From: Nitrospira sp.
GTDB taxonomy: Bacteria; Nitrospirota; Nitrospiria; Nitrospirales; Nitrospiraceae
Direction: 5' to 3'
NCBI GenBank assembly: GCA_030123605.1
Contig: CP126123.1
Location: forward strand, 806,001-870,000
Length of the DNA: 64,000 nt
Below are positions 35,501-61,020 of this stretch, in pieces; the first letter of the stretch is position 1, and the number at the start of each line of letters is the position of its first letter. The notes beneath the pieces were generated by a model. The model was not told the DNA's origin and made no database searches. It saw only the letters and a list, made by a program, of their open reading frames with translations. Both the position numbers and the translations under genes were made by a program.

Positions 35501-35650
35501 TCATCGTACGTAGTGTGAACAGGCGCGAGAACCGACTGCAGGTTTGATGAAAATGGCTGAGTGCCAGTCTGGCAAAGATTCGACGATGATCACAACATGT
35601 GCCTGACCACGCCCGATCGGTAGCGGACCGGCCACCTCGTCGCACGTCAT
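35501..35650 (-). CDS. Possible small protein coupled to efflux pump gene
   Basis: A 49-codon frame (MTCDEVAGPLPIGRGQAHVV, ending ACSHYVR) starts at an ATG that overlaps the czcA stop codon by 4 bases (ATGA). The overlap is the only positive evidence. It has two Cys and three His, which could bind metal, but no family was recognised. It may be fortuitous. Confidence 0.3.
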   Translation of the reverse strand: MTCDEVAGPLPIGRGQAHVVIIVESLPDWHSAIFIKPAVGSRACSHYVR

Positions 35651-38600
35651 GTTGTCGCTTCCGTGGCAGCCCCTGAGGCAAGCGTTGAGGTATCCGCTTC
35701 GCGGCCTTGAAGAACTTTTTGTTCCGTCCACCGATAGAGCACCGGTAAGACCACGAGGGTGAGGGTCGTTGACGAAAATAACCCTCCGATCACCACTATG
35801 GCAAGCGGCCGTTGTATTTCCGAACCGGGACCGCTGGCCAACAGCAAGGGCATGAGCGCCATCATCGCGACGACCGCGGTCATCAGGACAGGGCGCAACC
35901 GCAACACCATGCCGGTCAGCACGGCTTCGTCCAGTGACATGCCCTGTTCCCGCAACTGGTTGATGTAGGCGATCTTCACCACCCCATTGAGCACCGCCAC
36001 ACCGAACAAGGCAATAAATCCGACGGAGGCCGGCACTGAGAGATAGAGCCCGCTCAGCAACAGCGCCATCAACCCACCGACCATCGCAAACGGAATCGCG
36101 AGGAGAATGAGCGTCGCGTGCCTCAGGTTTCCGAACGTGAAAAAGAGCAACAGAAAGATCAGTCCAATGACCAACGGCACGACAAGCGCCAGTCGTGCCA
36201 TCGCTTGTTGCTGGTTTTCGAATTGGCCACCCCAGGTCACATAATAACCGGGCGGAAGGTGCACCAGGCGGCCGACTCCCGCTCGCGCCTCTTCGACCGC
36301 GCCGACCAAGTCGCGCCCGACCACGTTGGCCTCAATCACAATTCGACGGCTTGCATGCTCACGGCTGATCTGTGCCGGCCCGTCCACAATTCGAATGTCG
36401 GCCAGGTCTCGAAGCGGGATGCGGGAGCCATCCGGCGCGGTCACCCAGAGTGTCGCAATCGTCGGCACATCAGCCCGCCGATCATCAGGAAACCGCACCA
36501 TAATAGGAAAGCGCCATTGCCCCTCGAAGACCTCTCCCGCGACAACCCCACCGCCGGCAGCTTCGATGACCTCCGTGACCTCAGCCACATTGATCCCGTA
36601 GCGCGCGATCTTGGCACGATCGATGTCGATCTTCAGATAGTAGAGACCGGAGATCTGCTCGACCCGAAGATCAGATAGGCCCGGCACCTGTCGCAACACC
36701 CGAGAAATCTCGTCCGCTTTCACCCGCAACACCTCGAGGTCATCGCCGAACAATTTGACCGCGATCTGAGACCGGACCCCTGACACCAGTTCATCGACAC
36801 GCATGGCGATCGGCTGGGACAACCCGACTGCGATGCCGGGCACTTGCGCCAGTCGGCCGCGGACTTGCTCTTCGATCTCGGCTTTGGACTGCGCCTGCCA
36901 TTCGGACTCGGGCTTGAGTAAGACATACACATCGCTGAGTTCCATCCCCATCGGATCCGTACCCAGTTCGTTGGCTCCCGTGCGCGAGACCACGGAGCGT
37001 ACGTCCGGGATCTCCAGCAACAACCGCTCGACTTCTCCCGAGATGTTCAGCGATTCGCTCAGGCTGATGCTCGGAAGCCGCACCACATTCACCACGATCG
37101 ACCCTTCATCCATGATCGGCACGAATTCCCGGCCGATGAACGGAACCAGGGCCACCCCGCAAACGAGTACTCCGACTGCCGCGAAGACGACCGGCCGGGT
37201 GTTACGAATGGCGCTCTCTAACATCCGTCTATACAGGAGGCGACCCCGCTCCAACAGGCGACCGTTTTCGTGGGTGACACGAGGCTTCATGAGCAACGCC
37301 GCCAGTACCGGGATCACCGTCACCGAGAGCACTAAAGAACTCAGGAGAGCGATCACCATCGTCATGGCGAGCGGGATGAACATCTTGCCCTCCATACCTT
37401 GGAGAGTCAGGAGCGGGACGAAGGTCAACGCAATGATCAACTCCCCGAACAGACTCGGCCGCCTCACTTCCAAGACGGCGCGTAACACGACCGGCAAACG
37501 GTCAACGACCGAGAGGGCTCGGCCCTTGGTCTGCTCACTCAGATGACGCTCGATATTTTCCACCTGTACGATGGCCGCATCGACGATCATCCCCAACGAG
37601 ATGGCCAAGCCGCCCAGCGACATCAGGTTCGCCGACAGGCCGACTTGCTGCATGACGACGAAGGTGGCCAACGTGGCGAGCGGTAACGTCAGGGCCACGA
37701 CAAGCGCGCCGCGAAAATTCCTCAGGAAGAGATACAGCACCAGGATGACGACCGCGGCGCCCTCCAACAAAGCCCGTTCGACGGTTGCGAGCGCCCGAGC
37801 CACCAGTTCGATGCGGTCATAGAACGGGACCAGCGTGACGCCGGCAGGCAACACCCGGTTGATCAATTCCACTTTGTCTTTCACCCCTGAGACAATCTCC
37901 CGGCTGTTGCCCCCCCGTAGCATAACGGCGATGCCTTCGAGCACCTCACCCTTCCCGTCACGGGTGACGCCTCCCAACCGGATCGCGGTCCCTTGGCGAA
38001 CCTGTGCGACGTCGCGGAGAAAAATCGGTGTGCCCTTGTGCGCCGCTACAACGATCTGTTCCAGGTCCGCGGCAGAGCGGGCCAATCCCACGCCGTGGAC
38101 GACCAACTTGTCTCCGCCCTGCTCGATGTAACCGCCCCCGGCATTCTGATTGTTTCCTGCGACAGCGGCGCAGACTTGACGCAAGGTGAGGCCAAAGTTC
38201 GTCAATCGATTGGGATCGACGAGCACCTCATACTGCTTCGCCAGGCCACCCAGCGTGTCGACATCCGCGAGGCCTGGGACGGCACGCAACATCGGGCGAA
38301 TGACCCAATCTTGAAGGGTCCGCAATTCCATCAGGGTCTGCATCGAGCCCTCGACGAGATACATATACACTTCGCTTAGACCCGTACTGACCGGTCCGAG
38401 TACCGGTTCGGCGCTTTGCGGAAGCCTGGATCGTGCCTGGAGCATCCGCTCCAAGACGAGTTGTCGGGCGAAATAGATATCCATCTTGTCCTCAAACACC
38501 ACCGTAATCACCGAGAGCCCGAACCGCGACACCGACCGGAGCTCCGTTTTGCCCGGCAGGTTCGTCAACTCGATTTCCAGGGGAAAGGTCACGAGACGTT

Positions 38601-38784
38601 CGATTTCGGGAGGCGCCAGAGACGGCGCTCGGGTAATGACCTGGACCTGAACGGGAGTGACGTCAGGAAAGGCATCGATCGGCAGATGACGAAACGCAGC
38701 GACGCCCCCCGCGATCAGTCCGATCACGGCATAAAGCACGAGGATTCGTTGTTCCAGCGCGGCACGGATCACTCGCTCGATCAT
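35647..38784 (-). CDS. czcA: Heavy-metal efflux RND pump (CzcA/CusA family)
   Basis: This 1045-residue inner-membrane proton antiporter has twelve predicted helices and two large periplasmic loops. Helix 4 reads ISLGMIVDAAIVQVENIERH, where the MVDAAIV-like form is nearer the CusA group than the DGAVV form of CzcA; metal specificity is therefore uncertain (cobalt/zinc/cadmium or copper/silver). Other family motifs include IDAFPDVTPVQVQV at the start and GREFVPIMDEGSI. It overlaps the membrane-fusion gene by 4 bases. Confidence 0.92.
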   Translation of the reverse strand: MIERVIRAALEQRILVLYAVIGLIAGGVAAFRHLPIDAFPDVTPVQVQVITRAPSLAPPEIERLVTFPLEIELTNLPGKTELRSVSRFGLSVITVVFEDKMDIYFARQLVLERMLQARSRLPQSAEPVLGPVSTGLSEVYMYLVEGSMQTLMELRTLQDWVIRPMLRAVPGLADVDTLGGLAKQYEVLVDPNRLTNFGLTLRQVCAAVAGNNQNAGGGYIEQGGDKLVVHGVGLARSAADLEQIVVAAHKGTPIFLRDVAQVRQGTAIRLGGVTRDGKGEVLEGIAVMLRGGNSREIVSGVKDKVELINRVLPAGVTLVPFYDRIELVARALATVERALLEGAAVVILVLYLFLRNFRGALVVALTLPLATLATFVVMQQVGLSANLMSLGGLAISLGMIVDAAIVQVENIERHLSEQTKGRALSVVDRLPVVLRAVLEVRRPSLFGELIIALTFVPLLTLQGMEGKMFIPLAMTMVIALLSSLVLSVTVIPVLAALLMKPRVTHENGRLLERGRLLYRRMLESAIRNTRPVVFAAVGVLVCGVALVPFIGREFVPIMDEGSIVVNVVRLPSISLSESLNISGEVERLLLEIPDVRSVVSRTGANELGTDPMGMELSDVYVLLKPESEWQAQSKAEIEEQVRGRLAQVPGIAVGLSQPIAMRVDELVSGVRSQIAVKLFGDDLEVLRVKADEISRVLRQVPGLSDLRVEQISGLYYLKIDIDRAKIARYGINVAEVTEVIEAAGGGVVAGEVFEGQWRFPIMVRFPDDRRADVPTIATLWVTAPDGSRIPLRDLADIRIVDGPAQISREHASRRIVIEANVVGRDLVGAVEEARAGVGRLVHLPPGYYVTWGGQFENQQQAMARLALVVPLVIGLIFLLLFFTFGNLRHATLILLAIPFAMVGGLMALLLSGLYLSVPASVGFIALFGVAVLNGVVKIAYINQLREQGMSLDEAVLTGMVLRLRPVLMTAVVAMMALMPLLLASGPGSEIQRPLAIVVIGGLFSSTTLTLVVLPVLYRWTEQKVLQGREADTSTLASGAATEATT

Positions 38785-40001
38785 GGCGCGTCCTCCGACG
38801 GCATCTGCTCGCGAAGCAATTCCGACTTCAAGGCATAACTGCCCTGGGTCACCACTTCGTCCCCCATGGCGAGACCGGCTTTGACCTGGACGTAGTCATC
38901 CGACGATTCGCCGATGGTGATCTCGCGGGATTCGAAGCGACGCGGTCCCCGAACGATGAACGCGACCGTCCGGATGCCTGCTTGCTGCACCGCCCCGCGC
39001 GGCACGCTCAAGACGGATTGCTCGTCCGTCATCAACGTCACGTCGGCGAACATCTCCGGCCTCAATCGGCCGTCAGGATTGGACACCTCCGCACGCGCCG
39101 TCACGGTCCGCGTCGTGGGATCAATCACCGCGCCGACATAGGTAATGGTGCCGTGAAATATCCGGTCCGGATAAGCCGATACGCGCAACTCGACGGTGAG
39201 GCCGGTCTTCAACCGCCCGGCCTGTTGTTCGGGGAAATCAGCACGCACCCAGACGGTCGAGAGATCGGCCACCGTGAACAAGATCTTGTTGGGATCGATG
39301 ACTTCTCCGATGGTCGCGTTCCGTTCGATCACGTCACCGACAAACGGGGCGCGGAGCGAGACTTGTGCGACCTCCGCATGGGGCAAGGTCCTGTTTGCCA
39401 GCCGCTCGATCTCACCCTCGGTCATGCCGAGCAAGTGCAGTTTCTCTTCTCCTTCATGCAAATCGGCTCGGGCGTTCTCATAGTCGGCCTCACGCCGTTG
39501 ATATTCACCCGCACCGATGGCGCCGCGATCGATGAGCGCTTGAGCCCGTTCGAGAAACTTCTTCGTCACCTTCAACGCCGTCCGCGCTTTGCGGTATTCT
39601 AATTGCGCTTCTCCAAAGGCGGGGCTATCGAGGAGGAGAAGTCGGTCGCCTTCCTGGACACGCTGTCCAAGATCCGCGTAGACGGACACGATGCGGCCGG
39701 GAACTCGCGCGCTCAGGTGTGCCAATCGGTTTTCGTTGGCTAACACCTTTCCGGCTTGTGCCTTAAGCGCCCTACGGATCGGGCGGATGGCCGCTCGATC
39801 GGTTCGGAGGCGCGCAAGTGTCGGACTGCCGTCGGGGAGTTCGATGATACCGGGCTCAGCAGACGCCGGCGCAGCCGGAGGAGTCGGCTTCGGCGTGTCC
39901 TCTTGTTTCGACTGGCACGAGATGGCGCCCATCGTTGCCGCTAGGCACAGGGCCATCGTCGTATGAACCCGTGAGGGAGGGCTCACGAAGCAAACGTTCA
40001 T
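38781..40001 (-). CDS. czcB: Efflux membrane-fusion protein (CzcB/CusB type)
   Basis: This 406-residue adaptor begins with a lipoprotein-type signal (LAATMGAISC, Cys at about residue 29) and has a lipoyl/barrel-sandwich segment (LAHLSARVPGRIVSVYADLG), a helical hairpin and a beta-barrel region (VRADFPEQQAGRLKTGL). It links the RND pump to the outer-membrane channel in the periplasm. It overlaps both neighbours by 4 bases. Confidence 0.9.
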   Translation of the reverse strand: MNVCFVSPPSRVHTTMALCLAATMGAISCQSKQEDTPKPTPPAAPASAEPGIIELPDGSPTLARLRTDRAAIRPIRRALKAQAGKVLANENRLAHLSARVPGRIVSVYADLGQRVQEGDRLLLLDSPAFGEAQLEYRKARTALKVTKKFLERAQALIDRGAIGAGEYQRREADYENARADLHEGEEKLHLLGMTEGEIERLANRTLPHAEVAQVSLRAPFVGDVIERNATIGEVIDPNKILFTVADLSTVWVRADFPEQQAGRLKTGLTVELRVSAYPDRIFHGTITYVGAVIDPTTRTVTARAEVSNPDGRLRPEMFADVTLMTDEQSVLSVPRGAVQQAGIRTVAFIVRGPRRFESREITIGESSDDYVQVKAGLAMGDEVVTQGSYALKSELLREQMPSEDAP

Positions 40002-41257
40002 GGCAATCCTCCCACCGCCCGTTCCAATTGGGCCAACGCGATGGAATGGTCGGCTCGGGCTTGAGCATACTCAAGGAGTGTCTGACGATAGACCCGCTGT
40101 GCATCGATGACTTCGAGCAAGCTCGCCACTCCATGGCGAAAACTGAACTGCGCAATATCCAGAGCTTCTTTGGCTTGAAAGAGCAGTCCTTGTTCGAAGA
40201 CCTGCATCTGTTCTTGAGCCGTCTGCACCTCCTGAAAATGCTGCGTGATGGCCTGCTCCAGTTCCTGCTGTATCCGAGATCGATTGGCTTGCGCTCGGCG
40301 ATGCACTCCCATTGCGGTACCGATTTCACCTTGTCGGCGATACCAGATGGGCAAGGGCACACTGACGCCCGCCGTGAAGGATTCATCCCCTGCTTCCCGG
40401 TGATACTGGCCGATCACCGCCACATTGGGCATGCGCGACGCACGTTCCTGCTCAATAGCGAATTCAGCCTGCTCCACCGCTTTCTCCTGCCGACGAACGG
40501 TCGGATGTTGATTCAGGCCCTGTTCCATCAACGCTTGGAGGTTCATTCCCCTTCGGATCGGTTCGAACGTTCCTTCTATCGTGAATCGATCTCCTATGAC
40601 TTTTCCCGTCACCGTGTTGAGCTTGGCGCGGGCGACGAGGAGCGCATTGTCCGCCCTCGCCAGATCCTTTCGTGACTTTTGAAGTTCGACCGTCGCCTTG
40701 ACCAACTCGAACTTCGGCGCTTCTCGCGTACCGACACGAGCCGTAACCAATTTCACGAGGTCTTCGACCGTTTTCAGATTCTCCTTCGCGAGTTGGGCAT
40801 CTTGTTGTGAGAAGAGCAATTGGAAAAACGCCCCCTTCACATCGGCCATAAGGATCACCTTTGTCTCCTCCATGCCGGCCAGAGCACCCGCGACCCCCGC
40901 GTCAGCCGCCCGCTGTCGAGCCGCTCGTTTGCCGAGCCATTCCAGTGGCTGCTCCACCGTAATCGTCCGTTCGGTGACCGAGACACCGGTGCTGGGATCG
41001 CGAATCGATCCACGTCCGGCCGACGCCGTGATGAGGGGATTCAAGTAGGCACCGGCGGTGACCCGTTGACTCTGAGTCTGTTCCAACATCGCTTCGGCGC
41101 CATTCATGAGCGGGTTATGTTGGAGAGCGAGTTGTATGACTTGATTCAGCGTGTATCCATTCTGATTAAGTTCCGTGGCCTGGCTCACCGTATGAAACGG
41201 AGGAGTCATCGCGCATGCGAGCACGGCGATGACTCTGCAAACGAGTGCAGGTGTCAT
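39998..41257 (-). CDS. czcC: Efflux outer-membrane channel (CzcC/TolC family)
   Basis: This 419-residue protein begins MTPALVCRVIAVLACAM with a signal peptide, followed by two outer-membrane efflux repeats (YTLNQVIQLALQHNPLM; later RGMNLQALMEQGLNQHPTVR) rich in long Ala/Gln helices. I start at the ATG at 41257, which has GGGGAGGA upstream. It completes the tripartite pump. Confidence 0.9.
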   Translation of the reverse strand: MTPALVCRVIAVLACAMTPPFHTVSQATELNQNGYTLNQVIQLALQHNPLMNGAEAMLEQTQSQRVTAGAYLNPLITASAGRGSIRDPSTGVSVTERTITVEQPLEWLGKRAARQRAADAGVAGALAGMEETKVILMADVKGAFFQLLFSQQDAQLAKENLKTVEDLVKLVTARVGTREAPKFELVKATVELQKSRKDLARADNALLVARAKLNTVTGKVIGDRFTIEGTFEPIRRGMNLQALMEQGLNQHPTVRRQEKAVEQAEFAIEQERASRMPNVAVIGQYHREAGDESFTAGVSVPLPIWYRRQGEIGTAMGVHRRAQANRSRIQQELEQAITQHFQEVQTAQEQMQVFEQGLLFQAKEALDIAQFSFRHGVASLLEVIDAQRVYRQTLLEYAQARADHSIALAQLERAVGGLP

Positions 41258-41367
41258 GATAGTCCTCCCCCATCGGTGCCATGGCAACTGGCCTCCGTCA
41301 CAATATGAAACGGACGCACAACACCGATACAATTGGTCGAAGCGTTACGGGAATTGAGACAATACGA

Positions 41368-42169: not shown

Positions 42170-44938
42170 ATGCACCATAAGAGTCGGAAGCACCGGAAGA
42201 AGCCCATGGGCGAAGCGGCCCTGCGTCGCATTCAAGCCGCAGTCGCGTCCGCGACCGAGACGGTCGCGGCGTATGACCGAAAGCGATTCGCATGGAGCTT
42301 TATCGTCAGCCTCTCGGCCTTGGCCTTGGGCACCTACCATCCCGCAATGGCGCAGGACAAGCGATCGCAGGACTGGAATCAGGGACCGTATGACCCGGAA
42401 CAGGACGACCTCGCTCTTCGGGCCGGTGCAACAGGACGCGACAGGCTCGATTCGGCTGGACGCGCCGTTCGGACACCGGACTACGATCGAGGCGCCGCCC
42501 CGCCTATTCGCCTCGCCGCGAACGAGGAATCACCAGGCGGGTCGAAGCAGCCGTTTGACGTCTCGGAAGGCGACTTGGAAGGAGCACTGTTCACTTTCTC
42601 TGGACAAGCGAACTTACAGATCCTCTACTCGTCTGAATTGGTCACCGGCCTCCGGAGCCGTGGGGTCCAAGGCGACTATACGCCGGACGAAGCCCTCACC
42701 CGATTGTTACGCGATACCGGGCTCGACTACCGATATTCCAATCCCACCACGATTACGCTCCACCGCAGTGATTCGACGGGCTCGGCCGCCGCGGGCGCTG
42801 CCGGAGCAGCCGCAGTCGTGTCCCAAGCGCAACCGTCCAAACCGGTCAAAGTACCGGAAATCGTCGTCAAGGAGGTCACTGACCGGACGCCGGCCAACGA
42901 CCCTGAGGAAGGGTACAAAGGCGACTATTCCTCTACGGTCACTCGCAGCCAGATGTCGATCGATGAGAATCCGACGTCGATCGGCATTGTCACCCGTGAT
43001 CTGATCAAAGACACCTTCGCTCGTACACAGAACGATGCCTTCGAAGCGGTGAGCGGCATGTCGCGCAGCAACACCAGATCAGGACGGGGTGAAGGCTTCA
43101 ATATCCGAGGAATCGAGGTCTGTACCTTTACCGGCAGCTTTAACGGCATGAAAGTCAATGGGTTGCCGACTGATTGCGTGTTCGCACCGGATTGGGGCAT
43201 CGTCGAGCGGTATGAGATCGTGAAAGGACCTGCCTCCATCGTCGGCGGCGCCGCCACTCCGGGCGGAATCGTCAACCGGATCACCAAGACCCCGCAGCGT
43301 CATAATTTTACGACCGTCGAGTCCAATGTCGGGTCCTACGGCTTGGCCAGAGGGATGGTCGATGCCAACGGGGTCCTGCCGAATCACGAGGACATTCGCG
43401 GGCGATTGGTCTTCGCCGTCGAAGACGGCGGCAACTTTATCGATTTTACGCCGGTCAGGCAATATACGGTCGCCCCCTCCGCCGAGTTCGATCTCTTTAA
43501 AGGCGCCGGGAAGTTGCTCCTCGTCGGCACCTATCAAAAGTTCCAGGGCGCCAGCTATCCAGGTTGGCCGCTCACGACCGACGGAAAAATGCTCAACGTG
43601 CCGCGCACGCGGAACTACGGCGGCGGCGCCGGGGTGGGCGCCTATACCAGCTATACCGGCTACAACGGCGAAGTCCATTACGACCATAAGTTTATCCACG
43701 ACATCAAACTGTCGGCCAAAGGCAAGGTGTCGAAGTCCGATCTCACCGATAACATCGTGTACAGCTATACCTTCGGCGGAATTCCACCGAGCGGCGACTC
43801 CTACCTCAACAACGGCTTTCGTCACAACCGGTTCGATACCTATGCGGGCGAGTTGTTTCTCAGCAAGGACTTCTCATTGTTCGGGCAGAAGCAGGAGATC
43901 TTGGCCGGCGCCGACCATCGCGACATGACGCAAAATTTCTTTCTGGGCTATACCTATTTACCGGAGGGCGGAACACCGGTGATCGACAACGTGTTCAACC
44001 CGAGAAACGGGATGCGCGTGGCATCCGATTCCTTCTTGACCAGCACCGCGACAACCCCCTTCCGAGCCACCCTGAAACAGACCGGGGTGTTCGCGCAAAC
44101 CGTCATTCGTCCCCTTGAACGGCTGACCCTCGTCTTGGCGGGACGGCACGACGAGGCGGACTCGTCGAACCGAAACACATTGACGGGCGTACAAAGCAAC
44201 CAGACGAGGTCCGAATGGACAGGCCGAGCCGGCGCGACCGTGAAAGTCACGGACTGGATGAACGTCTATGGAGGCATTCAACAATCATTCGCCCCACAAC
44301 CTTTCAATCTCACCCGGAATAATCAGATTCTGGAGCCGGAGACCGGCATCAATTACGAAGTCGGAGCCAAGTTGAACCTGCTCGACGAACGTCTGCGCAT
44401 CACCACCGCCTTGTTCCGCACCTATCGCCGCCATGTCGCGACAGTCGATCCGGGGGACATTCGATTTACCGTTGCCGTCGGCGAGCAACGCCATCAGGGC
44501 GCGGAATTGGATGTGAACGGGCAACCGATTCCCGGCTTGAACGTGAATGCAGCCTTCACCTATCTGGATGCCGTGATTACAGAAGACAATGACCCGGCAA
44601 GGATCGGCATGTATCCGACCAGGGTTCCGCGTAACTATGTGGGGCGCGTCTTCACGACCTATGAACTCCAGTCCGGACCTCTGCAAGGGTTCGGATTCGG
44701 GGGCGGCGTCTATTTCCAAGGGCAGTATGAAGTGTCATTTCCCAACGGGATCAAGACCGATCCGTATCAACGGGTCGATGCCCTGCTCTTTTACCGAGGC
44801 AACAAACGTTATGATGTGACCGTCAACGTCCGCAATCTGCTCAACGCCAAATATATCGAAGGCCCAGGCGGTATAAACGCCTATAACAGCTTCGGCGCGC
44901 CGATCACCGCCATCGCGTCGTTGCGGGTGTTTTTCTGA
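42170..44938 (+). CDS. TonB-dependent siderophore receptor with STN domain
   Basis: This 922-residue receptor has a signal peptide (RKRFAWSFIVSLSALALGTY, cleavage after AMA near residue 60) and an STN signalling domain at about 125-190 (PFDVSEGDLEGALFTFSGQA, ILYSSELV). A Pro/Ala linker, a TonB-box-like KVPEIVVKEV (about 225), a plug and a 22-strand barrel follow, ending FGAPITAIASLRVFF. Plug features FNIRGIEV and IVKGPASIVGGAATPGGIVN are typical of FpvA/FhuE-like receptors. It converges with the NRPS genes, which suggests uptake of their product. The matching anti-sigma/sigma (FecR/FecI) genes are absent from the window. It is the only plus-strand protein gene here. Confidence 0.9.
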   Translation: MHHKSRKHRKKPMGEAALRRIQAAVASATETVAAYDRKRFAWSFIVSLSALALGTYHPAMAQDKRSQDWNQGPYDPEQDDLALRAGATGRDRLDSAGRAVRTPDYDRGAAPPIRLAANEESPGGSKQPFDVSEGDLEGALFTFSGQANLQILYSSELVTGLRSRGVQGDYTPDEALTRLLRDTGLDYRYSNPTTITLHRSDSTGSAAAGAAGAAAVVSQAQPSKPVKVPEIVVKEVTDRTPANDPEEGYKGDYSSTVTRSQMSIDENPTSIGIVTRDLIKDTFARTQNDAFEAVSGMSRSNTRSGRGEGFNIRGIEVCTFTGSFNGMKVNGLPTDCVFAPDWGIVERYEIVKGPASIVGGAATPGGIVNRITKTPQRHNFTTVESNVGSYGLARGMVDANGVLPNHEDIRGRLVFAVEDGGNFIDFTPVRQYTVAPSAEFDLFKGAGKLLLVGTYQKFQGASYPGWPLTTDGKMLNVPRTRNYGGGAGVGAYTSYTGYNGEVHYDHKFIHDIKLSAKGKVSKSDLTDNIVYSYTFGGIPPSGDSYLNNGFRHNRFDTYAGELFLSKDFSLFGQKQEILAGADHRDMTQNFFLGYTYLPEGGTPVIDNVFNPRNGMRVASDSFLTSTATTPFRATLKQTGVFAQTVIRPLERLTLVLAGRHDEADSSNRNTLTGVQSNQTRSEWTGRAGATVKVTDWMNVYGGIQQSFAPQPFNLTRNNQILEPETGINYEVGAKLNLLDERLRITTALFRTYRRHVATVDPGDIRFTVAVGEQRHQGAELDVNGQPIPGLNVNAAFTYLDAVITEDNDPARIGMYPTRVPRNYVGRVFTTYELQSGPLQGFGFGGGVYFQGQYEVSFPNGIKTDPYQRVDALLFYRGNKRYDVTVNVRNLLNAKYIEGPGGINAYNSFGAPITAIASLRVFF

Positions 44939-44980
44939 CCTGCGAAGCGCGAACGAGAACGACTGAGTTTCTTTACGAGG

Positions 44981-45009
44981 CCAGATTCACCGTAAGACAG
45001 TGAATCTGG
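44981..45009. terminator. Candidate bidirectional terminator hairpin
   Basis: CCAGATTCAC and GTGAATCTGG form a perfect 10-base stem with a 9-base loop in the convergent gap between the receptor and the NRPS operon. Neither side has a long T run, so termination strength is uncertain. Confidence 0.5.
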
Positions 45010-45153
45010 CCTTGCAAACCTATTGCTGTTCTTACTCCAGACTGCACATACACACTCCTCGGGTCTCCAGTCGATCCGCACGATCCTGCAATCTCAGTCG
45101 TCTTCACACATCGAGACAATCCATTTGGTCGCTGTTGTCGCTCGATCGCTTCA

Positions 45154-48100
45154 TTAGCGGGATATCTGAGCCAGTAGCGATGCCGGAGTCTCGCTCTGAC
45201 TATGCGCGATCACCTCCCGCAAAACCTCAGCATACGCTCCGACAACCGCTTCGATCGTTTTTTGTCGATAGCGTTCCCTGCTGTAGGTGAGGGATACTTC
45301 AAACTGTCCTCCTATGATCGCGCCGGCAAAGGTCAATTCGTGGCCCAGCCGATCCCGGCCATCGTGCGAACGTCCGGTCGATTCGGTGGCCGCCGCAAAC
45401 AGGCCGCCATCAGGAAGCGTTTGGTCGAATTGACCCAAATAGTTGAAACAGACTTCCGCGGCCGGCATGGAGCGAATCTGTCTCGACAGCACGCCACACG
45501 GCGGCAAATATTTCAGAATGCCATATCCAATTCCTCGATTGGGAACGAGGTGGAGCTGCTGCTTGACGGTCTGGACTGCTTCTTTCGGCAAGGCATCGGG
45601 TGCCACATCGAGCCACACGGGAAACAGTCCGGCAAACCAGCCGACCGTCCGCGAGACGTCGAGACCCGCAAAGATTTCCTCTCGTCCATGCCTATCCAGA
45701 TCCACCATCAGGCAGGAATGGCCCGTCCAGCGTCCTATGCTCTGAACCATCGCCGTCAACAGAACATCGATGATTTGCGATTGATACGCTCGGGGCACGT
45801 GCTGCAACAACGCCTGTGTTTCTGCTGCCGTTAACTCGACCGTCACCGTCACGGCAAGGTCCTCGGTCCTCTCTCCTTCGGGATAGTCAATGGGGATCCC
45901 TTGGGTCTGTGTCCATCGGCTATCCAACCAGTAGGTTGCATCCTGCGCCGGCGCCTCTGATTGGGCATACATCCGCAGCCGCTCCGCCCATTGTTTGTAC
46001 GAACTGGTCTTCGCCGGCATCTGAATGGCCTGTCCCTGCGTCACTTGCCGGAGAGCTGTTTGAAGATCCTCTGCCAAGATTCGCCACGAAACCCAATCCA
46101 CGACGGCATGGTGAATGATGATCAACAACCGTTGCGATCGGCCCATTCCTCGATCGAACAAAACGACCTGCAGCAATGGTCCCTTGTTCAGGTCGAGTCG
46201 CTGATGCCATTCGTCGGCCGATTCGGCCAACACCTGTTCATGCTCCGCCTCTGAAATCTGGGACAGATCCATACGATGGACGCCGACCTGCGGAACAGAT
46301 GGCTCGATCCACTGTCTCCATCCTCCTTCATCGCGTCTGAAACGCGCCCGCAGCATGTCATGCTGTCGCAACAACTGTTGGAACGCTGCTTCTACCGTAG
46401 CGACCGTGAGATTTTCCCGCAACTCCAGCAGGACAGCTTGGTTGTAGCGATGTGGATTCTGTATGTTCTGTTCGAAGAACCACTCTTGAATCGGCGTCAG
46501 GGGGATTTCTCCGCTCACCAACCCTTGCTCTGCTTGAATATCAGAATCCGCTTCCACTGCTGCCTTCCCTGCCAAGTCGGCAATCGTTTGATGCTCGATC
46601 AATTGCCGAGGAGACAACAGAATCCCGCTTTGGCGACATCGCGAGACAACCTGAATGCTCAAGATAGAATCCCCGCCCAACTCGAAGAAGTTGTCGTGGC
46701 GGCCGACCTGAGCCACCCCGAGCAGCTCCGCCCAGATCGTCGCCAACCGCGCTTCCGTCGGCGTCGCCGGCGGCGCATACGCCACGGGACGCGGCAGGTC
46801 CCCGGCCTCCGGGGCCGGCAGGGCCTTCCGGTCCACTTTGCCGTTCGGCGTGAGCGGCAGCTTGTCCAGCACCACGTACACCGCCGGCACCATATACTCC
46901 GGCAGCCGACGCCCCAGAAACTCCCGCACCGCCGCCACCGCCACCGGCGCGGTCGTCACCAGATACCCGACCAGACGCTTGGAGCCGGCCGGCTCCGCCC
47001 GCGCCACCACCACCGCTTGCCCGATGGCCGGATGTTCGCGCAGCCGCGCCTCGATCTCCCCCAGCTCGATCCGGACCCCCCGCACCTTCACCTGCTGATC
47101 CCGCCGCCCAAGAAATTCGAGGGTCCCGTCAGCCCGATAACGCCCCAGATCTCCCGTCCGGTACAGCCGCTGCCCTGGCTGCTCGCTGAACGGATGCGGC
47201 CCGAACGCCGCCGCCGTCCGCCCCGGCTCGCCGAGATACCCCCGCCCCACGCCCACGCCCCCGATCCAGAGCTCCCCCGTCACCCCCACCGGCACCGGCG
47301 CCAGATCCGCATTTAATACATACAGCTCCAGGTTGGCCGCCGGCCGCCCGATCGGCACCACCGTCTCCTCCGCCCCCGGCGCCCGCGTCAGGGGATAGTA
47401 CGCCACGTCGTCCGCACACTCGGCCGGCCCGTAGGCATTGAGCAACGGCACGGTCGGATACCGCGTCAACCACGCCCGGCAGAGCTCCGGCGTCACCGCC
47501 TCCCCCGTCGGCAACAACCACCGTAAGGCCGGGAGGGCCGGCGCTGGCTCCACCGCCACCACTTCCCGCAACAACGACGGCACCAGCTCCGCCACCGTCA
47601 CGCCCGTTCGGGCGAATTCGGCCAGCAACCGCACCGGCTCCTGCACGACGTCGTCGGACAGAATCTCCACCCGCCCCCCGCACAGTAACGCGCTCAGCCC
47701 TTGCCACACCGAGATGTCGAACCCGACGCCCGCGGTCTGTGCCACCACATCCCGGCTCGTCAGGCCCAGCACCGGGAGCTTTCCCCACACGTTGTTCACC
47801 ATCCCCTGCTGCGAAACCACCGCGCCTTTGGGCTGCCCCGTCGACCCCGACGTGAACAGCACATACCCCACTTGCTGCGGATGCGTCCGGCGCGGCGGCC
47901 GCGGGTACCGGCCCGCCGGCAACGACGCCCGCGTGGCCACCCGCAGGTCGGGCCGCTCCGCCACGAGGGGCTCGAGCCGATGGCGCTCCGCTTCCGTCGT
48001 CAGCACCTGCCGCACGTGGCCCTGCGTCAGCAGTTGCCCCCACCGCGCCGGTGGATGCGTCGGATCCAGCGGCAGATACCCCCCGCCCGCCTTCAGAATG

Positions 48101-51100
48101 CCCAGCAGCAGCGTGACCCACTCCACGCCCCGCGCCGCCAGCACCGCCACCACCGTATCGGGCCCCACGCCCGCCGCCACCAACCCCCCGGCCACCTGCG
48201 CCGCCCGCGCGTCCAGCTCCGCATAGGTCAGCGCCTCCGCCCCGCCTTGCACCGCCACCGCCGCCGGCGTCCGCGCGACCTGCGCCTCAAATAACTCCGC
48301 CACACTCTGCTCCGCCGGGTACGCCGCCCCCGTCTTATTCCACGTTGTTGTTATGGTCAGCCGCTCTTCTTCTGTCAGGAACGACAACTCCGACAGACGC
48401 GCAGGTGGTCGCGCCACCATCTGTTCCAAGAGAACCCTATAGTGCTCGACCATTCGGGCAATCATGTCGTCGTCGAAGAGATCCGTACTGTACTCCACCA
48501 ATCCGTTGAGTCCTTCCTGAGTCTCATTCAATTCCATTGAGAGATCAAATTTTGATGTCTTGTCTTCAATCGTCAGCGCTTCTATCGACAGGCCTGGAAT
48601 CTCCAAAGCCTCCATCGGCGCATTCTGAAATGTAAACATCACTTGAAACAGCGGACTATGGCCGAGAGAGCGGACCGGCTGTACAGCTTCGACGACCTTC
48701 TCAAACGGAACATCTTGATGGGCTTGGGCTCCAATCACCCGCTCCCGTACTCGTTGCAATAATGTCCGACATGATGGATTGTCGGACAAATCCGTCCGCA
48801 AGACGAGTGTGTTCACAAAGAATCCGATCAAACCTTCAATTTCCAACCTGGTCCGATTGGCAATTGGTACTCCGACACAGATGTCCTGTTGGCCGCTGTA
48901 TCGGGATAGGAGAATCTGAAACGCCGCCAACAGAGTCATGAACATCGTGGTACCCTCAGCTTGACTCAGAGCATGAAGTTGTTGAGTCAGGGGCGCCGAA
49001 AGCTGGAACGGAATGCGGGCGCCGCGATAGGTCTGCACGGCGGGACGCGGCCGAGTGGGAAGAGTAATGAGCGGCGGAATTCCCGCGAGTGTGCCCTTCC
49101 AGTAAGTCAGTTGTTGTTGAAGTACGGATCCCGACAGCCATTGCCGTTGCCAGAGCGCGAAATCCGCATACTGAATCGGCAACTCCGACAAGGATGATTG
49201 CGTTCCGTTCGTAAACGCCTTATAGAGGGCGACGGATTCCTTTACAAACAACCCCATCGACCAACCATCCGAGACAATATGATGCATGGTCAGCAGTAAC
49301 ACATGTTCATGTGACGCCAGATACAGCAACGTCGCACGAATCAGCGGACCTAGCGAGAGGTCAAACGGCCGCTTAGCCTCTTCAGCTACCGAACGCCGCA
49401 CCGCTCCCTCTCGCTCGTCTTTCGGGATTGTCGTCAAGTCGATCCTCATCAGAACGATCGTTGCCTCGTCTCCGATCACCTGTACGGGCCGGCTATCTCT
49501 CATCTCAAAGGTAGTGCGCAATACTTCATGGCGACGAATCATCTCTTGCAAGGCAGCCTGCAACGCCGCTGCATCAAGCGTTCCCTGAAGCCGAAACGCC
49601 GTCGCGATGTTATAGGTGGAACTATTTGGCTCCAGCTGATCCAAGTACCAGAGTCGCTCTTGTGCAAAAGAAAGCGGCACGCGATCAGTTCGTCGGGCAC
49701 GGATCAAGGCAGGCGCCCCTGCACTATCTCTGTCTGTACGAACGGGGTCCGTAGTTGCAGCTAATTGAGCTACTGTCGGTCCGTCGAATAACGCTCGAAG
49801 CGGTAACTCGATCTGAAAGGCTTTTCTCACGCGAGAGATCACCTGTGTCGCCAAGAGCGAATGTCCGCCCAACTCGAAGAAGTTGTCGTGGCGGCCGACC
49901 TGAGCCACCCCGAGCAGCTCCGCCCAGATCGTCGCCAACCGCGCTTCCGTCGGCGTCGCCGGCGGCGCATACGCCACGGGACGCGGCAGGTCCCCGGCCT
50001 CCGGGGCCGGCAGGGCCTTCCGGTCCACTTTGCCGTTCGGCGTGAGCGGCAGCTTGTCCAGCACCACGTACACCGCCGGCACCATATACTCCGGCAGCCG
50101 ACGCCCCAGAAACTCCCGCACCGCCGCCACCGCCACCGGCGCGGTCGTCACCAGATACCCGACCAGACGCTTGGAGCCGGCCGGCTCCGCCCGCGCCACC
50201 ACCACCGCTTGCCCGATGGCCGGATGTTCGCGCAGCCGCGCCTCGATCTCCCCCAGCTCGATCCGGACCCCCCGCACCTTCACCTGCTGATCCCGCCGCC
50301 CAAGAAATTCGAGGGTCCCGTCAGCCCGATAACGCCCCAGATCTCCCGTCCGGTACAGCCGCTGCCCTGGCTGCTCGCTGAACGGATGCGGCCCGAACGC
50401 CGCCGCCGTCCGCCCCGGCTCGCCGAGATACCCCCGCCCCACGCCCACGCCCCCGATCCAGAGCTCCCCCGTCACCCCCACCGGCACCGGCGCCAGATCC
50501 GCATTTAATACATACAGCTCCAGGTTGGCCGCCGGCCGCCCGATCGGCACCACCGTCTCCTCCGCCCCCGGCGCCCGCGTCAGGGGATAGTACGCCACGT
50601 CGTCCGCACACTCGGCCGGCCCGTAGGCATTGAGCAACGGCACGGTCGGATACCGCGTCAACCACGCCCGGCAGAGCTCCGGCGTCACCGCCTCCCCCGT
50701 CGGCAACAACCACCGTAAGGCCGGGAGGGCCGGCGCTGGCTCCACCGCCACCACTTCCCGCAACAACGACGGCACCAGCTCCGCCACCGTCACGCCCGTT
50801 CGGGCGAATTCGGCCAGCAACCGCACCGGCTCCTGCACGACGTCGTCGGACAGAATCTCCACCCGCCCCCCGCACAGTAACGCGCTCAGCCCTTGCCACA
50901 CCGAGATGTCGAACCCGACGCCCGCGGTCTGTGCCACCACATCCCGGCTCGTCAGGCCCAGCACCGGGAGCTTTCCCCACACGTTGTTCACCATCCCCTG
51001 CTGCGAAACCACCGCGCCTTTGGGCTGCCCCGTCGACCCCGACGTGAACAGCACATACCCCACTTGCTGCGGATGCGTCCGGCGCGGCAGCCGCGGGTAC

Positions 51101-52917
51101 CGGCCCGCCGGCAACGACGCCCGCGTGGCCACCCGCAGGTCGGGCCGCTCCGCCACGAGGGGCTCGAGCCGATGGCGCTCCGCTTCCGTCGTCAGCACCT
51201 GCCGCACGTGGCCCTGCGTCAGCAGTTGCCCCCACCGCGCCGGTGGATGCGTCGGATCCAGCGGCAGATACCCCCCGCCCGCCTTCAGAATGCCCAGCAG
51301 CAGCGTGACCCACTCCACGCCCCGCGCCGCCAGCACCGCCACCACCGTATCGGGCCCCACGCCCGCCGCCACCAACCCCCCGGCCACCTGCGCCGCCCGC
51401 GCGTCCAGCTCCGCATAGGTCAGCGCCTCCGCCCCGCCTTGCACCGCCACCGCCGCCGGCGTCCGCGCGACCTGCGCCTCAAATAACTCCGCCACACTCT
51501 GCTCCGCCGGGTACGCCGCCCCCGTCTTATTCCACGTCCGCGTCTGCTCACGCACCTCCGCGGCGCTCAGCACCGTCACCTCGCCCAGCCGCCGCCCCGG
51601 TCCCGCCACCAGCTGCTCCAGCACCCCCTGGAACTGCGCCAGCATCCGCCGTATCGTCGCCTCCTCACACTGCCGCCGATCGTAGGTCAACTGCAGCAAT
51701 AAGGCCTCCGTCGGAACCACGACGACGGTGAGCGGATAGTTCGTATGAGTGCGATTGCCTTGCTGTTCAATAGAAAATGGACTGGCATGATCTGTCAGAC
51801 TGGGATCACTGGGGGCGCTTTCGAAGACGAGGAGCGAATCGAAGAGCGCTCGCCCGCGTGGCACCTCACTCCAACTCTGAATCTGCACCAGCGGCGCATA
51901 CTCGTATTGCCGCAGCCGGAGATTCTGTGCAAAGAGCTCCTGCAGCCACGACACCACGTCCCGGTCGCCCGCCACCGTCACCCGCAGCGGCAGGCTGTTG
52001 ATGAACAGCCCCACCATGTCCTCCACCCCCGCCAACCCAGGCGGCCGCCCCGCCACCGTCACCCCGAACACCACCTCCGTCTCCCCGCTGTAGCGGCTCA
52101 AGAGCCAGGCCCACGCCCCCTGCACCAGCGTGTTGAGCGTCACCCGATGCCGCGTCGCCCACGCCTGGAGCGCCGCCGTCGTCTCCTCCGACAGCGTCAC
52201 CACCGCATCGGCCACCGGATCCGGCCCCCTCCACTCCGCCGGACGGTCCCGCAACACCCCCACCGGCGTCGGCACCGTGAACCCGCGCAACTGCTCCCGC
52301 CAAAACCCTTCCGCCTCCTGCATGTCCTGCTGCTGCAGCCACGCAATGTACTCGCGGTACGGCCGCGGCTTCGGCACCGCCAGCGGCCGCCCCGCCACGA
52401 GCGCCTCGTAAAACCGAAAGAAATCCACCATCAGCACCGAAAAGCACCAGGCGTCCATCAAGATCAGATGATAGCTGCGCGTGATCCGATACGTCGTCGC
52501 TCCCGTCCGGATCAGCCGCAGCCGCAGCAACGGCACCTTCCCCAAGTCGAACCCCGTCGCCAACTCCTGCGCCAGCACCTCCTCCACCCCCTGCGCCTGC
52601 GCCGCGGCCGACCGGTCCCGCCAATCCAGATATTCCAACGGCACCGCCACCTGCTTGTGCACCACCTGCAACGGCCGCTTCTGCCGCTCCCACACAAACG
52701 CCGTCCGCAGCACCCCATGCCGGTCCATCACCTGCTGCCACGCTTGCCGAAACGCCGCCACGTCCAGCGGCCCGTCCCACCCATACCGGTCCTGCATCAG
52801 GTACATCCCCGAGCCCGGCTCCAGCAGCGTATGAAACAACAACCCCTCCTGCATCGGCGACAACGGATAGATGTCCTCAATATTCGCCGACGCCTGCTTC
52901 GTCTGAGTCTCAGTCAT
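45154..52917 (-). CDS. NRPS, C-A-T-C-A-T-E (two Dab-type modules)
   Basis: This is the last synthetase of the chain, 2587 residues. Domains by residue: C 15-450 (starts IYPLSPMQEGLLFHTL, DCL type, motif YHLILMDAW), A 470-960, T 985-1050 (FFELGGHSLL), C 1070-1510 (VPLSFAQERLWYLDQL, LCL type, MHHIVSDGWS), A 1535-2025, T 2050-2115 (FFELGGDSIL), E-like 2140-2587. Both A domains give the ten-residue code DIWELTADDK, which I recall for 2,4-diaminobutyrate. The E-like domain is altered: HHAVVDW for HHxxxDG and DRHGRE for EGHGRE. There is no thioesterase. The start ATG lies 62 bases after the preceding NRPS gene. Confidence 0.93.
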   Translation of the reverse strand: MTETQTKQASANIEDIYPLSPMQEGLLFHTLLEPGSGMYLMQDRYGWDGPLDVAAFRQAWQQVMDRHGVLRTAFVWERQKRPLQVVHKQVAVPLEYLDWRDRSAAAQAQGVEEVLAQELATGFDLGKVPLLRLRLIRTGATTYRITRSYHLILMDAWCFSVLMVDFFRFYEALVAGRPLAVPKPRPYREYIAWLQQQDMQEAEGFWREQLRGFTVPTPVGVLRDRPAEWRGPDPVADAVVTLSEETTAALQAWATRHRVTLNTLVQGAWAWLLSRYSGETEVVFGVTVAGRPPGLAGVEDMVGLFINSLPLRVTVAGDRDVVSWLQELFAQNLRLRQYEYAPLVQIQSWSEVPRGRALFDSLLVFESAPSDPSLTDHASPFSIEQQGNRTHTNYPLTVVVVPTEALLLQLTYDRRQCEEATIRRMLAQFQGVLEQLVAGPGRRLGEVTVLSAAEVREQTRTWNKTGAAYPAEQSVAELFEAQVARTPAAVAVQGGAEALTYAELDARAAQVAGGLVAAGVGPDTVVAVLAARGVEWVTLLLGILKAGGGYLPLDPTHPPARWGQLLTQGHVRQVLTTEAERHRLEPLVAERPDLRVATRASLPAGRYPRLPRRTHPQQVGYVLFTSGSTGQPKGAVVSQQGMVNNVWGKLPVLGLTSRDVVAQTAGVGFDISVWQGLSALLCGGRVEILSDDVVQEPVRLLAEFARTGVTVAELVPSLLREVVAVEPAPALPALRWLLPTGEAVTPELCRAWLTRYPTVPLLNAYGPAECADDVAYYPLTRAPGAEETVVPIGRPAANLELYVLNADLAPVPVGVTGELWIGGVGVGRGYLGEPGRTAAAFGPHPFSEQPGQRLYRTGDLGRYRADGTLEFLGRRDQQVKVRGVRIELGEIEARLREHPAIGQAVVVARAEPAGSKRLVGYLVTTAPVAVAAVREFLGRRLPEYMVPAVYVVLDKLPLTPNGKVDRKALPAPEAGDLPRPVAYAPPATPTEARLATIWAELLGVAQVGRHDNFFELGGHSLLATQVISRVRKAFQIELPLRALFDGPTVAQLAATTDPVRTDRDSAGAPALIRARRTDRVPLSFAQERLWYLDQLEPNSSTYNIATAFRLQGTLDAAALQAALQEMIRRHEVLRTTFEMRDSRPVQVIGDEATIVLMRIDLTTIPKDEREGAVRRSVAEEAKRPFDLSLGPLIRATLLYLASHEHVLLLTMHHIVSDGWSMGLFVKESVALYKAFTNGTQSSLSELPIQYADFALWQRQWLSGSVLQQQLTYWKGTLAGIPPLITLPTRPRPAVQTYRGARIPFQLSAPLTQQLHALSQAEGTTMFMTLLAAFQILLSRYSGQQDICVGVPIANRTRLEIEGLIGFFVNTLVLRTDLSDNPSCRTLLQRVRERVIGAQAHQDVPFEKVVEAVQPVRSLGHSPLFQVMFTFQNAPMEALEIPGLSIEALTIEDKTSKFDLSMELNETQEGLNGLVEYSTDLFDDDMIARMVEHYRVLLEQMVARPPARLSELSFLTEEERLTITTTWNKTGAAYPAEQSVAELFEAQVARTPAAVAVQGGAEALTYAELDARAAQVAGGLVAAGVGPDTVVAVLAARGVEWVTLLLGILKAGGGYLPLDPTHPPARWGQLLTQGHVRQVLTTEAERHRLEPLVAERPDLRVATRASLPAGRYPRPPRRTHPQQVGYVLFTSGSTGQPKGAVVSQQGMVNNVWGKLPVLGLTSRDVVAQTAGVGFDISVWQGLSALLCGGRVEILSDDVVQEPVRLLAEFARTGVTVAELVPSLLREVVAVEPAPALPALRWLLPTGEAVTPELCRAWLTRYPTVPLLNAYGPAECADDVAYYPLTRAPGAEETVVPIGRPAANLELYVLNADLAPVPVGVTGELWIGGVGVGRGYLGEPGRTAAAFGPHPFSEQPGQRLYRTGDLGRYRADGTLEFLGRRDQQVKVRGVRIELGEIEARLREHPAIGQAVVVARAEPAGSKRLVGYLVTTAPVAVAAVREFLGRRLPEYMVPAVYVVLDKLPLTPNGKVDRKALPAPEAGDLPRPVAYAPPATPTEARLATIWAELLGVAQVGRHDNFFELGGDSILSIQVVSRCRQSGILLSPRQLIEHQTIADLAGKAAVEADSDIQAEQGLVSGEIPLTPIQEWFFEQNIQNPHRYNQAVLLELRENLTVATVEAAFQQLLRQHDMLRARFRRDEGGWRQWIEPSVPQVGVHRMDLSQISEAEHEQVLAESADEWHQRLDLNKGPLLQVVLFDRGMGRSQRLLIIIHHAVVDWVSWRILAEDLQTALRQVTQGQAIQMPAKTSSYKQWAERLRMYAQSEAPAQDATYWLDSRWTQTQGIPIDYPEGERTEDLAVTVTVELTAAETQALLQHVPRAYQSQIIDVLLTAMVQSIGRWTGHSCLMVDLDRHGREEIFAGLDVSRTVGWFAGLFPVWLDVAPDALPKEAVQTVKQQLHLVPNRGIGYGILKYLPPCGVLSRQIRSMPAAEVCFNYLGQFDQTLPDGGLFAAATESTGRSHDGRDRLGHELTFAGAIIGGQFEVSLTYSRERYRQKTIEAVVGAYAEVLREVIAHSQSETPASLLAQISR
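46673..48345 (-). repeat. Near-identical A-T repeat, copy 1
   Basis: This 1673-base block spans the second A domain and the start of the second T domain of the last NRPS. It is nearly identical to 49865-51537 and 57945-59617. Across all three, the encoded proteins differ at only two positions that I could see (Leu/Pro in RYPRxPRRTH and Lys/Glu in TWNxTGA). Confidence 0.9.
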
Positions 52918-52979: not shown

Positions 52980-55900
52980 TCATTGAATGTCTTCAAGAAT
53001 GTGATTCAGCGCCTCCGGGCTGAGCTCGACGTCCGGGAAATCCGCCGGCGTATACCCGGCCGCCTCCCCCGCCAGACACTCTCGGATCAGTGTGCGAAGC
53101 GCCTGCTCATACCGTTCGCCCAGCGCCGCCATCGTGGCTCGGCGGTACCGGCGCCCGCTGTATCCCCACAGGACGTGCAGCCGGCCGTCGAGAATATGGG
53201 CGTTGATGTCCCACTCATACGGCAGTCGGCTCCCCGCCGCCTGGTTGGGGCCCACGGACTCCGGTGCCGGACGCACCGGCGCCTCCGGCGGAAACGTCTG
53301 GTCCAATTGCCCCAAGTAGTTGAAGCTCACCGGCGCGGGCGGCTGCGCGGCCAGATGGCGCCGGACCTCGGGATCTCCGCCGCCGTAGCGCAGCAGCCCA
53401 TAGCCGAGCCCCTTGTGCGGGAGCCGCCGCACCCGGGCTTTCACCGCCGCCAGCACGGCCCCCGGCGTCGCACCGGGCGCCACCCGCACCACGACCGGAT
53501 AGACCGTCGTGAACCACCCGACCGTCCGCGACACATCGAGCTCGGGAAATACGTCTTCCCGGCCGTGCCCCTCCAGATCAAACGCCACCACCGCGCTCCC
53601 GCTCCACTCGCTCAGCACCTGAACCAGCGCCGCGAGCAGCACCTCGTGCAGCTGGGTGCGCGCCGCCGCCGGCACCGCCTGCACCAGTTGACGCGTCGTC
53701 TCTGCGTCCACCGACACCGTGACGATCTCGGCGTCCGCCTCGGTCGCCGCCCCCTGCGGGTCCTCGACCGGAATGGCCCAGGCGGCCGCTGGCTCAATGG
53801 CCAGCCAAGAGGCCGCCTCCGCCTGGAGCGCTGCCGAGTGACTGTAGGCGTGCAACTGCGTCGCCCACGCTTGAAAGGAACTGCTCGTCGGCAGCCGCAC
53901 CGGTGCCTGGGTGGTGAGCGCCTGATAGGCCGTCATCAGGTCCTCCAGCAGAATCCGCCAGGAGATGCCGTCCACCACCAAGTGATGGATGACCAACAGC
54001 AGGCGCGCGGTCTGCGCCGGCCCGCGGGTGAACAGCACCGCCCGGACCACCGGCCCTGTCGTCAGATCGAGCCGCGCCTGCCGGTCGGTCGCCGCCGCCT
54101 CCAACGCCTGGGCTTGCTCGGCCACCGGAACGGCCGCAAGATCGACATACTCCACGGTCACCGCCGCTGCCTCGGCCGCATAGGCTTGTCGCCAGCCGTC
54201 GGCCGTCGGCGTAAACCGCAGCCGGAAGGCGTCATGATGGGCCAGCACCGCCTGCACCGCGTGCTCGAGCCGACGCAGGTCGACCGCCGGTTGAACCGCT
54301 AACAACACCGCTTGATTGTAGTAATGGGGATTCGCCACGCCTTGCGCAAAGAAGTCCTGCTGGATCGGCGTCAGCGGCACCGCCCCCTGCACCGGCCCTT
54401 CTCGTTCGGCCTCCGCCGGCTTGCCCGTGCTCACCGCCGCCAGCGCCGCCACCGTCTGATGTTGAAACAACTGCCGCGGCGTCACTCGGATCCCTCGCTC
54501 GCGCGCCTGAGCAATGACTTGGATGCTGAGAATGGAATCCCCCCCCAACTCGAAGAAATTGTCGTGAATCCCCACACGCTCCACTCTCAAAACCTGCCGC
54601 CAGATCGCCGCCAGCGTGGTCTCGAACTCCGTTCGCGGCGCTACATACAGACGGGCTTCCCCCCCCCCGGCCTCCGGGGCCGGCAGGGCCTTCCGGTCCA
54701 CTTTGCCGTTCGGCGTGAGCGGCAGCTTGTCCAGCACCACGTACACCGCCGGCACCATATACTCCGGCAGCCGACGCCCCAGAAACTCCCGCACCGCCGC
54801 CACCGCCACCGGCGCGGTCGTCACCAGGTACCCGACCAGACGCTTGGAGCCGGCCGGCTCCGCCCGCGCCACCACCACCGCTTGCCCGATGGCCGGATGT
54901 TCGCGCAGCCGCGCCTCGATCTCCCCCAGCTCGATCCGAAACCCCCGCACCTTCACCTGCTGATCCCGCCGCCCAAGAAATTCAAGGGTCCCGTCAGCCC
55001 GATAACGCCCCAGATCCCCCGTCCGGTACAGCCGCTGCCCTGGCTGCTCGCTGAACGGATGCGGCCCGAACGCCGCCGCCGTGAGGTTCGGCCGATTCAA
55101 ATAGCCTCGCGCCAACCCTGTGCCCGCAATGTACAGTTCTCCCACCGCCCCGAGGGGGACCGGCTGCAGATCAGAATCGAGAACGTACAGCTCGACATTG
55201 GCAATGGGCCGGCCAATCGGGACGGTACTCATTGGAAGCCAATCCGTCCTCGAATCGGGGGCGTACACGCTGGCCGTAACTGTCGTCTCAGTCGGTCCAT
55301 ACGCATTGCACCAACCGATCGCATCACTCGCGATGCGCCGCCATCGCCGCACGTCGTCCACCGCTGCCTTTTCACTTCCGGCAACGACGAGACGGAGGGC
55401 AGGCGGCATCGCTGCGTCGGTATGTTCAATGTGCCCGATCCATCCTGCCCAGTAAGGTGTCGGAAGATTGAGCACCGTGATGTTTGTCTCTCGAATGAAA
55501 GCGTGAAAGTCTGAATAGGTCTCCGTCGACTCAGATGACCGCAAGACGACTGTCGCGCCGGTTAACCAGGTCGGAATACATTCTTCGATCAAGACATCGA
55601 AACTGATGGACGAAAATTGCAGCACACGATCGTCAGGGCTCAGGCCATACATCGTGACCATGGCCATCCCATGGTTCACCAACGACCGGTGGGTCACGCT
55701 GATTCCCTTAGGCCGTCCCGTGGAGCCTGAGGTATAGATCACATAGGCCAGCTGCTCAGGCTGGCCGACGGGGACGAGATTCATGCACGCGTATGTTGCA
55801 ATCACTTCCCACTGACTATCCAGACAGAGTATCGACATATCCCTGGCCGGTATCGTGGCTTGTAGATGAGCTTGCGTGAGCACGATCGCCGGCCGGCTGT

Positions 55901-60997: not shown

Positions 60998-61020
60998 GGG
61001 CTTATCCTATCTCGTTCAAT
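57930..61020 (-). repeat. Near-identical C-A-T repeat, copy in third NRPS gene
   Basis: This partner of 49850-52940 includes the true 3' end of the upstream NRPS gene (its final LNEIG and stop). That makes this locus the likely donor. It has much higher C/G bias than the flanking NRPS DNA. Confidence 0.92.

Follow-up and report, generated by a model that had tools for sequence, protein, structure and literature searches.

Pyoverdine, as described in the passages of PMC6206403 devoted to its biosynthesis, shares with the locus analysed here an acyl-ligase start, a Dab (2,4-diaminobutyrate) aminotransferase, a PvdE-type exporter, a PvdQ-related acylase and a free thioesterase; the same passages name Dab as one of the residues of PvdL, attribute a thioesterase (TE) motif to PvdD and discuss PvdG as acting in trans. 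Lines with no TE in cis are represented by surugamide and wollamide, for which part of PMC11735501 proposes a stand-alone release enzyme, a PBP-type TE, and reports that WolJ accepts a C-terminal D-Orn. In the glycopeptide NRPSs StaB and ComB, an epimerase (E) domain is retained and thought inactive, according to the relevant section of PMC1894796, and that domain is internal, whereas the E domain that concerns us ends its line. It resembles the E domains of PvdL (E2), TycB3, TycA and GrsA in its TIGR01720 match, its fold and its other motifs, and differs from them in having DRHGRE, a Trp for a Gly, no docking tail and nothing downstream. The last NRPS of the locus also differs from PvdD in having no thioesterase motif, and the cluster as a whole from pyoverdine in containing a PKS module and a TauD enzyme.

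The window, by which we mean the whole 64,000-nucleotide stretch that was analysed (genome positions 806001-870000), lies on the single 4.316-Mb contig of a Nitrospira genome (G000), and the NRPS line extends 28 kb beyond it, to about 898 kb. In the order of transcription, all on the minus strand, the genes encode a PvdE-type exporter, a Dab aminotransferase, a PvdQ-related acylase (a relative only, its 57-bit match falling far below the equivalog cut-off of 950), a free PF00975 thioesterase and the TauD enzyme, followed by a FAAL-T-C-A-MT protein, a small separate A_C-T protein, KS-AT-T-C-A-T-E-C-A-T-E, C-A-T-E, C-A-T, C-A-T-E and the last protein, C-A-T-C-A-T-E. A siderophore receptor completes the pyoverdine-type set. 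The NRPS frames are all open, across more than 13000 codons, and neither the receptor gene nor the accessory genes are damaged. A literature search on Nitrospira siderophore NRPSs gave nothing on this cluster among the matches listed. The principal features are as follows.

61002-64000, minus strand: NRPS C-A-T-E with intact E motifs, continuing beyond the window end (genome 867005-871708)
57746-60997, minus strand: NRPS C-A-T
52980-57704, minus strand: preceding NRPS C-A-T-E, with intact E motifs and a docking tail
45154-52917, minus strand: last NRPS of the line, C-A-T-C-A-T-E, 2587 aa
44978-45012, minus strand: 16-bp hairpin between convergent genes, probable terminator
42170-44938, plus strand: TonB-dependent receptor for siderophores, bearing an STN signalling domain and convergent with the NRPS line
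Genome 891392-892258, minus strand, outside the window: free PF00975 thioesterase, by profile match

The cluster is repetitive, with near-identical repeats of up to 3.1 kb and exact ones of up to 1876 bp, and its four Dab-type A domains share 99% identity or more across 1.5-1.7 kb, a likeness that would ease recombination or exchange. Between genome positions 851 and 874 kb, a 3.1-kb stretch at 98% identity and several of 1.5-2.1 kb at more than 99% connect modules of different NRPS genes; judged by these identities, the internal copying there is very recent. At the other end of the line, a methyltransferase-like domain breaks up the A domain of the FAAL-T-C-A-MT protein (genome 884553-890297, L002). 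The C-terminal portion of this A domain forms, with a T domain, a separate overlapping frame of 213-219 aa (genome 883898-884554, L001). This arrangement is common to all five clusters mapped (G000, G001, G019, G023 and G092) and, being conserved, appears to be a genuine module of two proteins and no artefact of sequencing. Elsewhere in the window, positions 14605-34659 carry corrinoid biosynthesis genes (CbiX, CbiD, CbiC, methylases, CbiG and a CobB/CobQ-type amidotransferase) adjoining a TonB receptor, TonB and an FecCD-type importer, and an RND pump at 35647-41332, considered as siderophore exporter, was ruled out as being of the CusA/CzcA metal type.

Within the last NRPS, the two modules and the terminal E domain are arranged as follows.

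49753-52881, minus strand: first module, C-A-T, used for the C-domain comparison with G092
48364-49680, minus strand: second C domain, closer to the LCL-like query
47233-48321, minus strand: last A domain, read as Dab-activating from its pocket residues compared with PvdL
46567-46755, minus strand: last carrier (T) domain, of GGDSI type
45157-46515, minus strand: terminal E-type domain (residues 2135-2587), with no docking tail and no TE behind it
46093-46113, minus strand: HHAVVDW in place of HHxxxDG, His-His and Asp retained, Gly replaced by Trp
45679-45696, minus strand: DRHGRE in place of EGHGRE, Glu replaced by Asp and Gly by Arg

The pockets of the last two A domains equal that of the solved A domain of PvdL except at one residue, and both are read as Dab-activating; we take the PvdL domain to be its Dab one and this pocket to be the Dab code itself, and the extraction that gave these pockets left several A domains with incomplete codes. 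GGDSI, found in the last carrier, is a sign of carriers that pair with E domains. The initial annotation had singled out both altered motifs and the replacement of the catalytic Glu, and all three hold: the changed codons are TGG for W2275 and GAT for D2408. Its statement that the two other E domains of the window are intact likewise stands and extends to the cluster, which has five E domains, the four besides the terminal one carrying HHLV(V/T)DG and EGHGRE; behind each of these four comes either a docking tail or a C domain, behind the terminal one neither. To call the latter a degenerate epimerase-like domain is apt as regards the catalytic motifs and overstated for the rest, since profile, fold and the other motifs (PIQxWF, RTVGWF, GxGYG and FNYLGQ) are those of E domains. 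It is full length, scores 102.2 bits with the E-specific profile TIGR01720 (cut-off 74.2) and also matches PF00668. Among solved structures, the PvdL E domain is the closest to it in sequence, and the structure predicted for it (pLDDT 91.2) aligns with solved E domains at Z 40.8-48.1 and with other condensation-superfamily chains at no more than 34.5. Thus, by descent and predicted fold, this is an E domain that has neither HHxxxDG nor EGHGRE with the catalytic Glu. The role of that Glu in the GrsA E domain was reportedly addressed by Stachelhaus and Walsh in 2000.

How unusual these changes are was assessed against 121 other E domains of the same genus and 78 public loci, aligned after 6 of 131 stretches had been left out as too short and exact duplicates and the query's own copy removed; one other E domain of G000 stays in the set twice, with slightly different edges. 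In this set, which was collected by likeness to the terminal domain and is not a random sample, the Glu-to-Asp change in EGHGRE occurs once (DGHGRE, in L069) and is therefore rare by this comparison, and the Gly of HHxxxDG is replaced in 10 of the 121 (three times by Met, twice each by Val and Ser, once each by Ala, Leu and Thr) and by an aromatic residue in none. When each sequence is scored against the rest of the set, the terminal domain deviates at 9 of the 57 columns conserved to at least 90%, the most of the 122 sequences (the next has 7), and at 5 of the 21 columns of the three catalytic motifs (the next has 3). At the 95% level it deviates at 3 of 37 columns, and at least one other sequence fares worse. 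Its mean identity to the set, ranking 41st from the bottom among 122, is unremarkable, and its changes are not significantly more concentrated in the catalytic motifs than elsewhere in the domain (p 0.19). In the tree, its branch is no longer than those of the other E domains of G000, and it forms an isolated line with no clear orthologue in G092. Profile and structure matches together with the column deviations suggest a domain that has kept its fold while conserved positions, including motif positions, have changed; an impaired remnant, an active epimerase and a release domain are indistinguishable by sequence.

The reading frame of the last NRPS terminates in two consecutive stops, past which no docking tail or TE remnant is found in three frames. 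The domain thus has no TPSD-type C-terminal tail and no downstream C domain, and the report that no TE, reductase or C domain follows and that the next gene is the convergent receptor is borne out, with the hairpin at 44978-45012 (z -5.4; 0 of 200 shuffles equally good) lying between the two genes as a probable terminator. Genome-wide, there is no unpaired C domain that could serve as a partner: of the 15 PF00668 matches, this cluster accounts for 13, and the other two belong to a second NRPS at 1.2 Mb with its own TE.

An E-domain match is present in 11 of the 29 genomes of the genus, G000 included, and the ten others have a PF00975 match in a large terminal NRPS frame, where G000 has none. 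In nine of the ten, the match is full (frames of 2386-2447 aa), and in G003 it is partial (1335-aa frame). The three that were mapped (G001, G019 and G023) have two more NRPSs past the E-bearing protein, the last with a TE. In G012, a 612-aa A'-T-TE piece (C7, 131205-133041; L121:5206-7041), whose TE matches the cis TE of G001 at 530 bits, is all that is left of the line. Across the order, 27 of 235 genomes have a match; five beyond the genus were fetched, among which the cluster of G092, from another genus of the same family, is the closest. It has the same gene order and accessory genes to the cluster end, where C-A-T, C-A-T-C-A-T-E and C-A-T-TE stand before the same TonB receptor, again convergent, which matches that of the window at 1306 bits. 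At the place where G092 has its TE, G000 has C-A(Dab)-T and the altered E domain, so that the one cluster ends in C-A-T-E followed by C-A-T-TE and the other in C-A-T-C-A-T-E, the rest of the gene order being alike. The C domain at the head of the last protein is 62% identical to the TE protein of G092 and equally to its C-A-T protein, which is why the exact rearrangement is not pinned down. In the tree of the genus, G000 falls next to the ten other genomes. An argument on polarity based solely on the genus was rejected, as this placing cannot decide between loss and gain. With G092 sharing the gene order and having a cis TE, loss is the simpler reading, and the TE-less end is probably derived.

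Two further observations concern E domains in other clusters. The second E domain of the 4097-aa protein of G092 (C89, 62116-74406; L140/L141) has HQ for HH, EGQGRE and no FNYLGQ, and retains its docking tail; its counterpart in G000 is intact. In a gammaproteobacterial MAG (L069:5215-11428), a tail-less, protein-terminal E domain with DGHGRE is directly followed by a CmlA-type beta-hydroxylase gene, and the contig ends 1.5 kb on. A link between a tail-less end and the Glu-to-Asp change was dropped, for only L069 of the three outside cases with DNA beyond the end has the change, and three cases are too small a number; L049, a further tail-less one, is truncated where its contig stops.

The routes of release envisaged in the initial annotation were the altered domain, a separate enzyme or hydrolysis. 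The separate enzyme stays a live option, and what had been missed is the cis TE of the relatives. A search upstream for a stand-alone thioesterase, as had been advised, found the PF00975 gene in the same gene run; it is the only such match in the cluster, where the line has no cis TE, and PF00975 matches elsewhere in the genome include no TE remnant of this line. A clearly co-regulated TE acting in trans, combined with normal epimerase activity, had been named as evidence against the earlier view, and half of this is seen in that the gene is co-located in the cluster. The enzyme retains GHSxG and the DHF His stretch and is found in exactly the 11 of 29 genus genomes with an E-domain match. Its presence in all relatives with a cis TE counts against release in trans: standing alongside cis TEs, it was not acquired to replace one, and it fits an editing role. 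In favor of such release is L085, in which a tail-less terminal E domain with its Glu kept is followed by a PF00975 gene. Faster evolution of the free TE in G000 was not significant (34 versus 22 unique sites, p 0.14). A PBP-type TE as release enzyme was rejected: unlike the surugamide and wollamide systems, this cluster has no PF00144 gene in or near it, the two in the genome being at 2340071 and 2985371, the former with counterparts across the genus.

Our preferred explanation, held tentatively and at somewhat short of even chances, is that a pyoverdine-like line lost its cis TE by rearrangement, that its terminal E domain is impaired and that the free TE acts in trans to release the chain. 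The end of the last NRPS would have been rearranged from the C-A-T-TE of the relative to C-A-T-C-A(Dab)-T-E, with loss of the terminal TE; the E domain, left with no downstream partner, would have lost its docking tail and had its catalytic motifs changed (Gly to Trp, Glu to Asp), and is probably impaired as an epimerase, although the Asp may still serve as a base. The conserved free PF00975 thioesterase would most likely free the chain, probably as a linear product, which the PvdE-like transporter would then export and the PvdQ-related acylase deacylate. That the domain is instead still an active epimerase with Asp for Glu, giving a last residue of D-Dab that a trans enzyme releases, is unlikely, even if it deserves serious consideration: the full-length E fold, the passed profile, the retained His pair and Asp of HHxxxDG and the GGDSI carrier all agree with it, the motif Gly is absent from ten other E domains too, and TE-less ends on an E domain are known in L085 and in L096 (tail-less, Glu kept) and are given for the mannopeptimycin NRPS, C-T-E, in part of PMC8949500. 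Against activity stand the single other Glu-to-Asp case, the lack of any other aromatic residue at the Gly position and the listing of that Gly as catalytically important in VibH, in the pertinent section of PMC1894796.

Release of the chain by the E domain itself, through hydrolysis or cyclization, would make a former epimerase the occupant of the lost TE's place and, if true, a release domain of a kind new to the condensation superfamily. It sits where relatives carry a TE, the catalytic motifs are the changed part, and domains of this superfamily can release chains, as do fungal CT domains, the CT domain of IvoA hydrolyzing a D-Tyr thioester according to part of PMC11546977; by fold and descent, however, this is an E domain and not a CT domain, and the portions of the literature searched contain no E domain with release activity, so that we consider the idea improbable. 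We regard as rather doubtful that the pathway is dead or dying, its TE lost and its product no longer made, for although decay is seen in relatives, in the remnant of G012 and the internal E domain of G092, the long open frames and intact receptor and accessory genes of G000 argue otherwise. Attack of a Dab side-chain amine on its thioester yields a five-membered lactam, and a terminal Dab, as the last A domain is read, could in this way release itself with no enzyme; this is very improbable, since the three other Dab-type modules of the line do not terminate the chain and no lactam product is known for this cluster. That the end of this repetitive cluster was misassembled, as the long repeats might suggest, is hardly credible, given that the terminal E domain occurs only once, as does its junction with the receptor, and that the genome is one contig with 99.98% completeness.

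Whichever way the chain is released, the line belongs to a known type of siderophore pathway, of which it is a variant that has no TE and is probably derived. Closely matched clusters, some having a cis TE and some not, and running in the same order to the same receptor, constitute a natural experiment on how a line survives the loss of its release domain, and also on whether a free TE or a domain of the condensation superfamily can take over release. They also show that a terminal E domain is no safe basis for predicting the chirality of the last residue.
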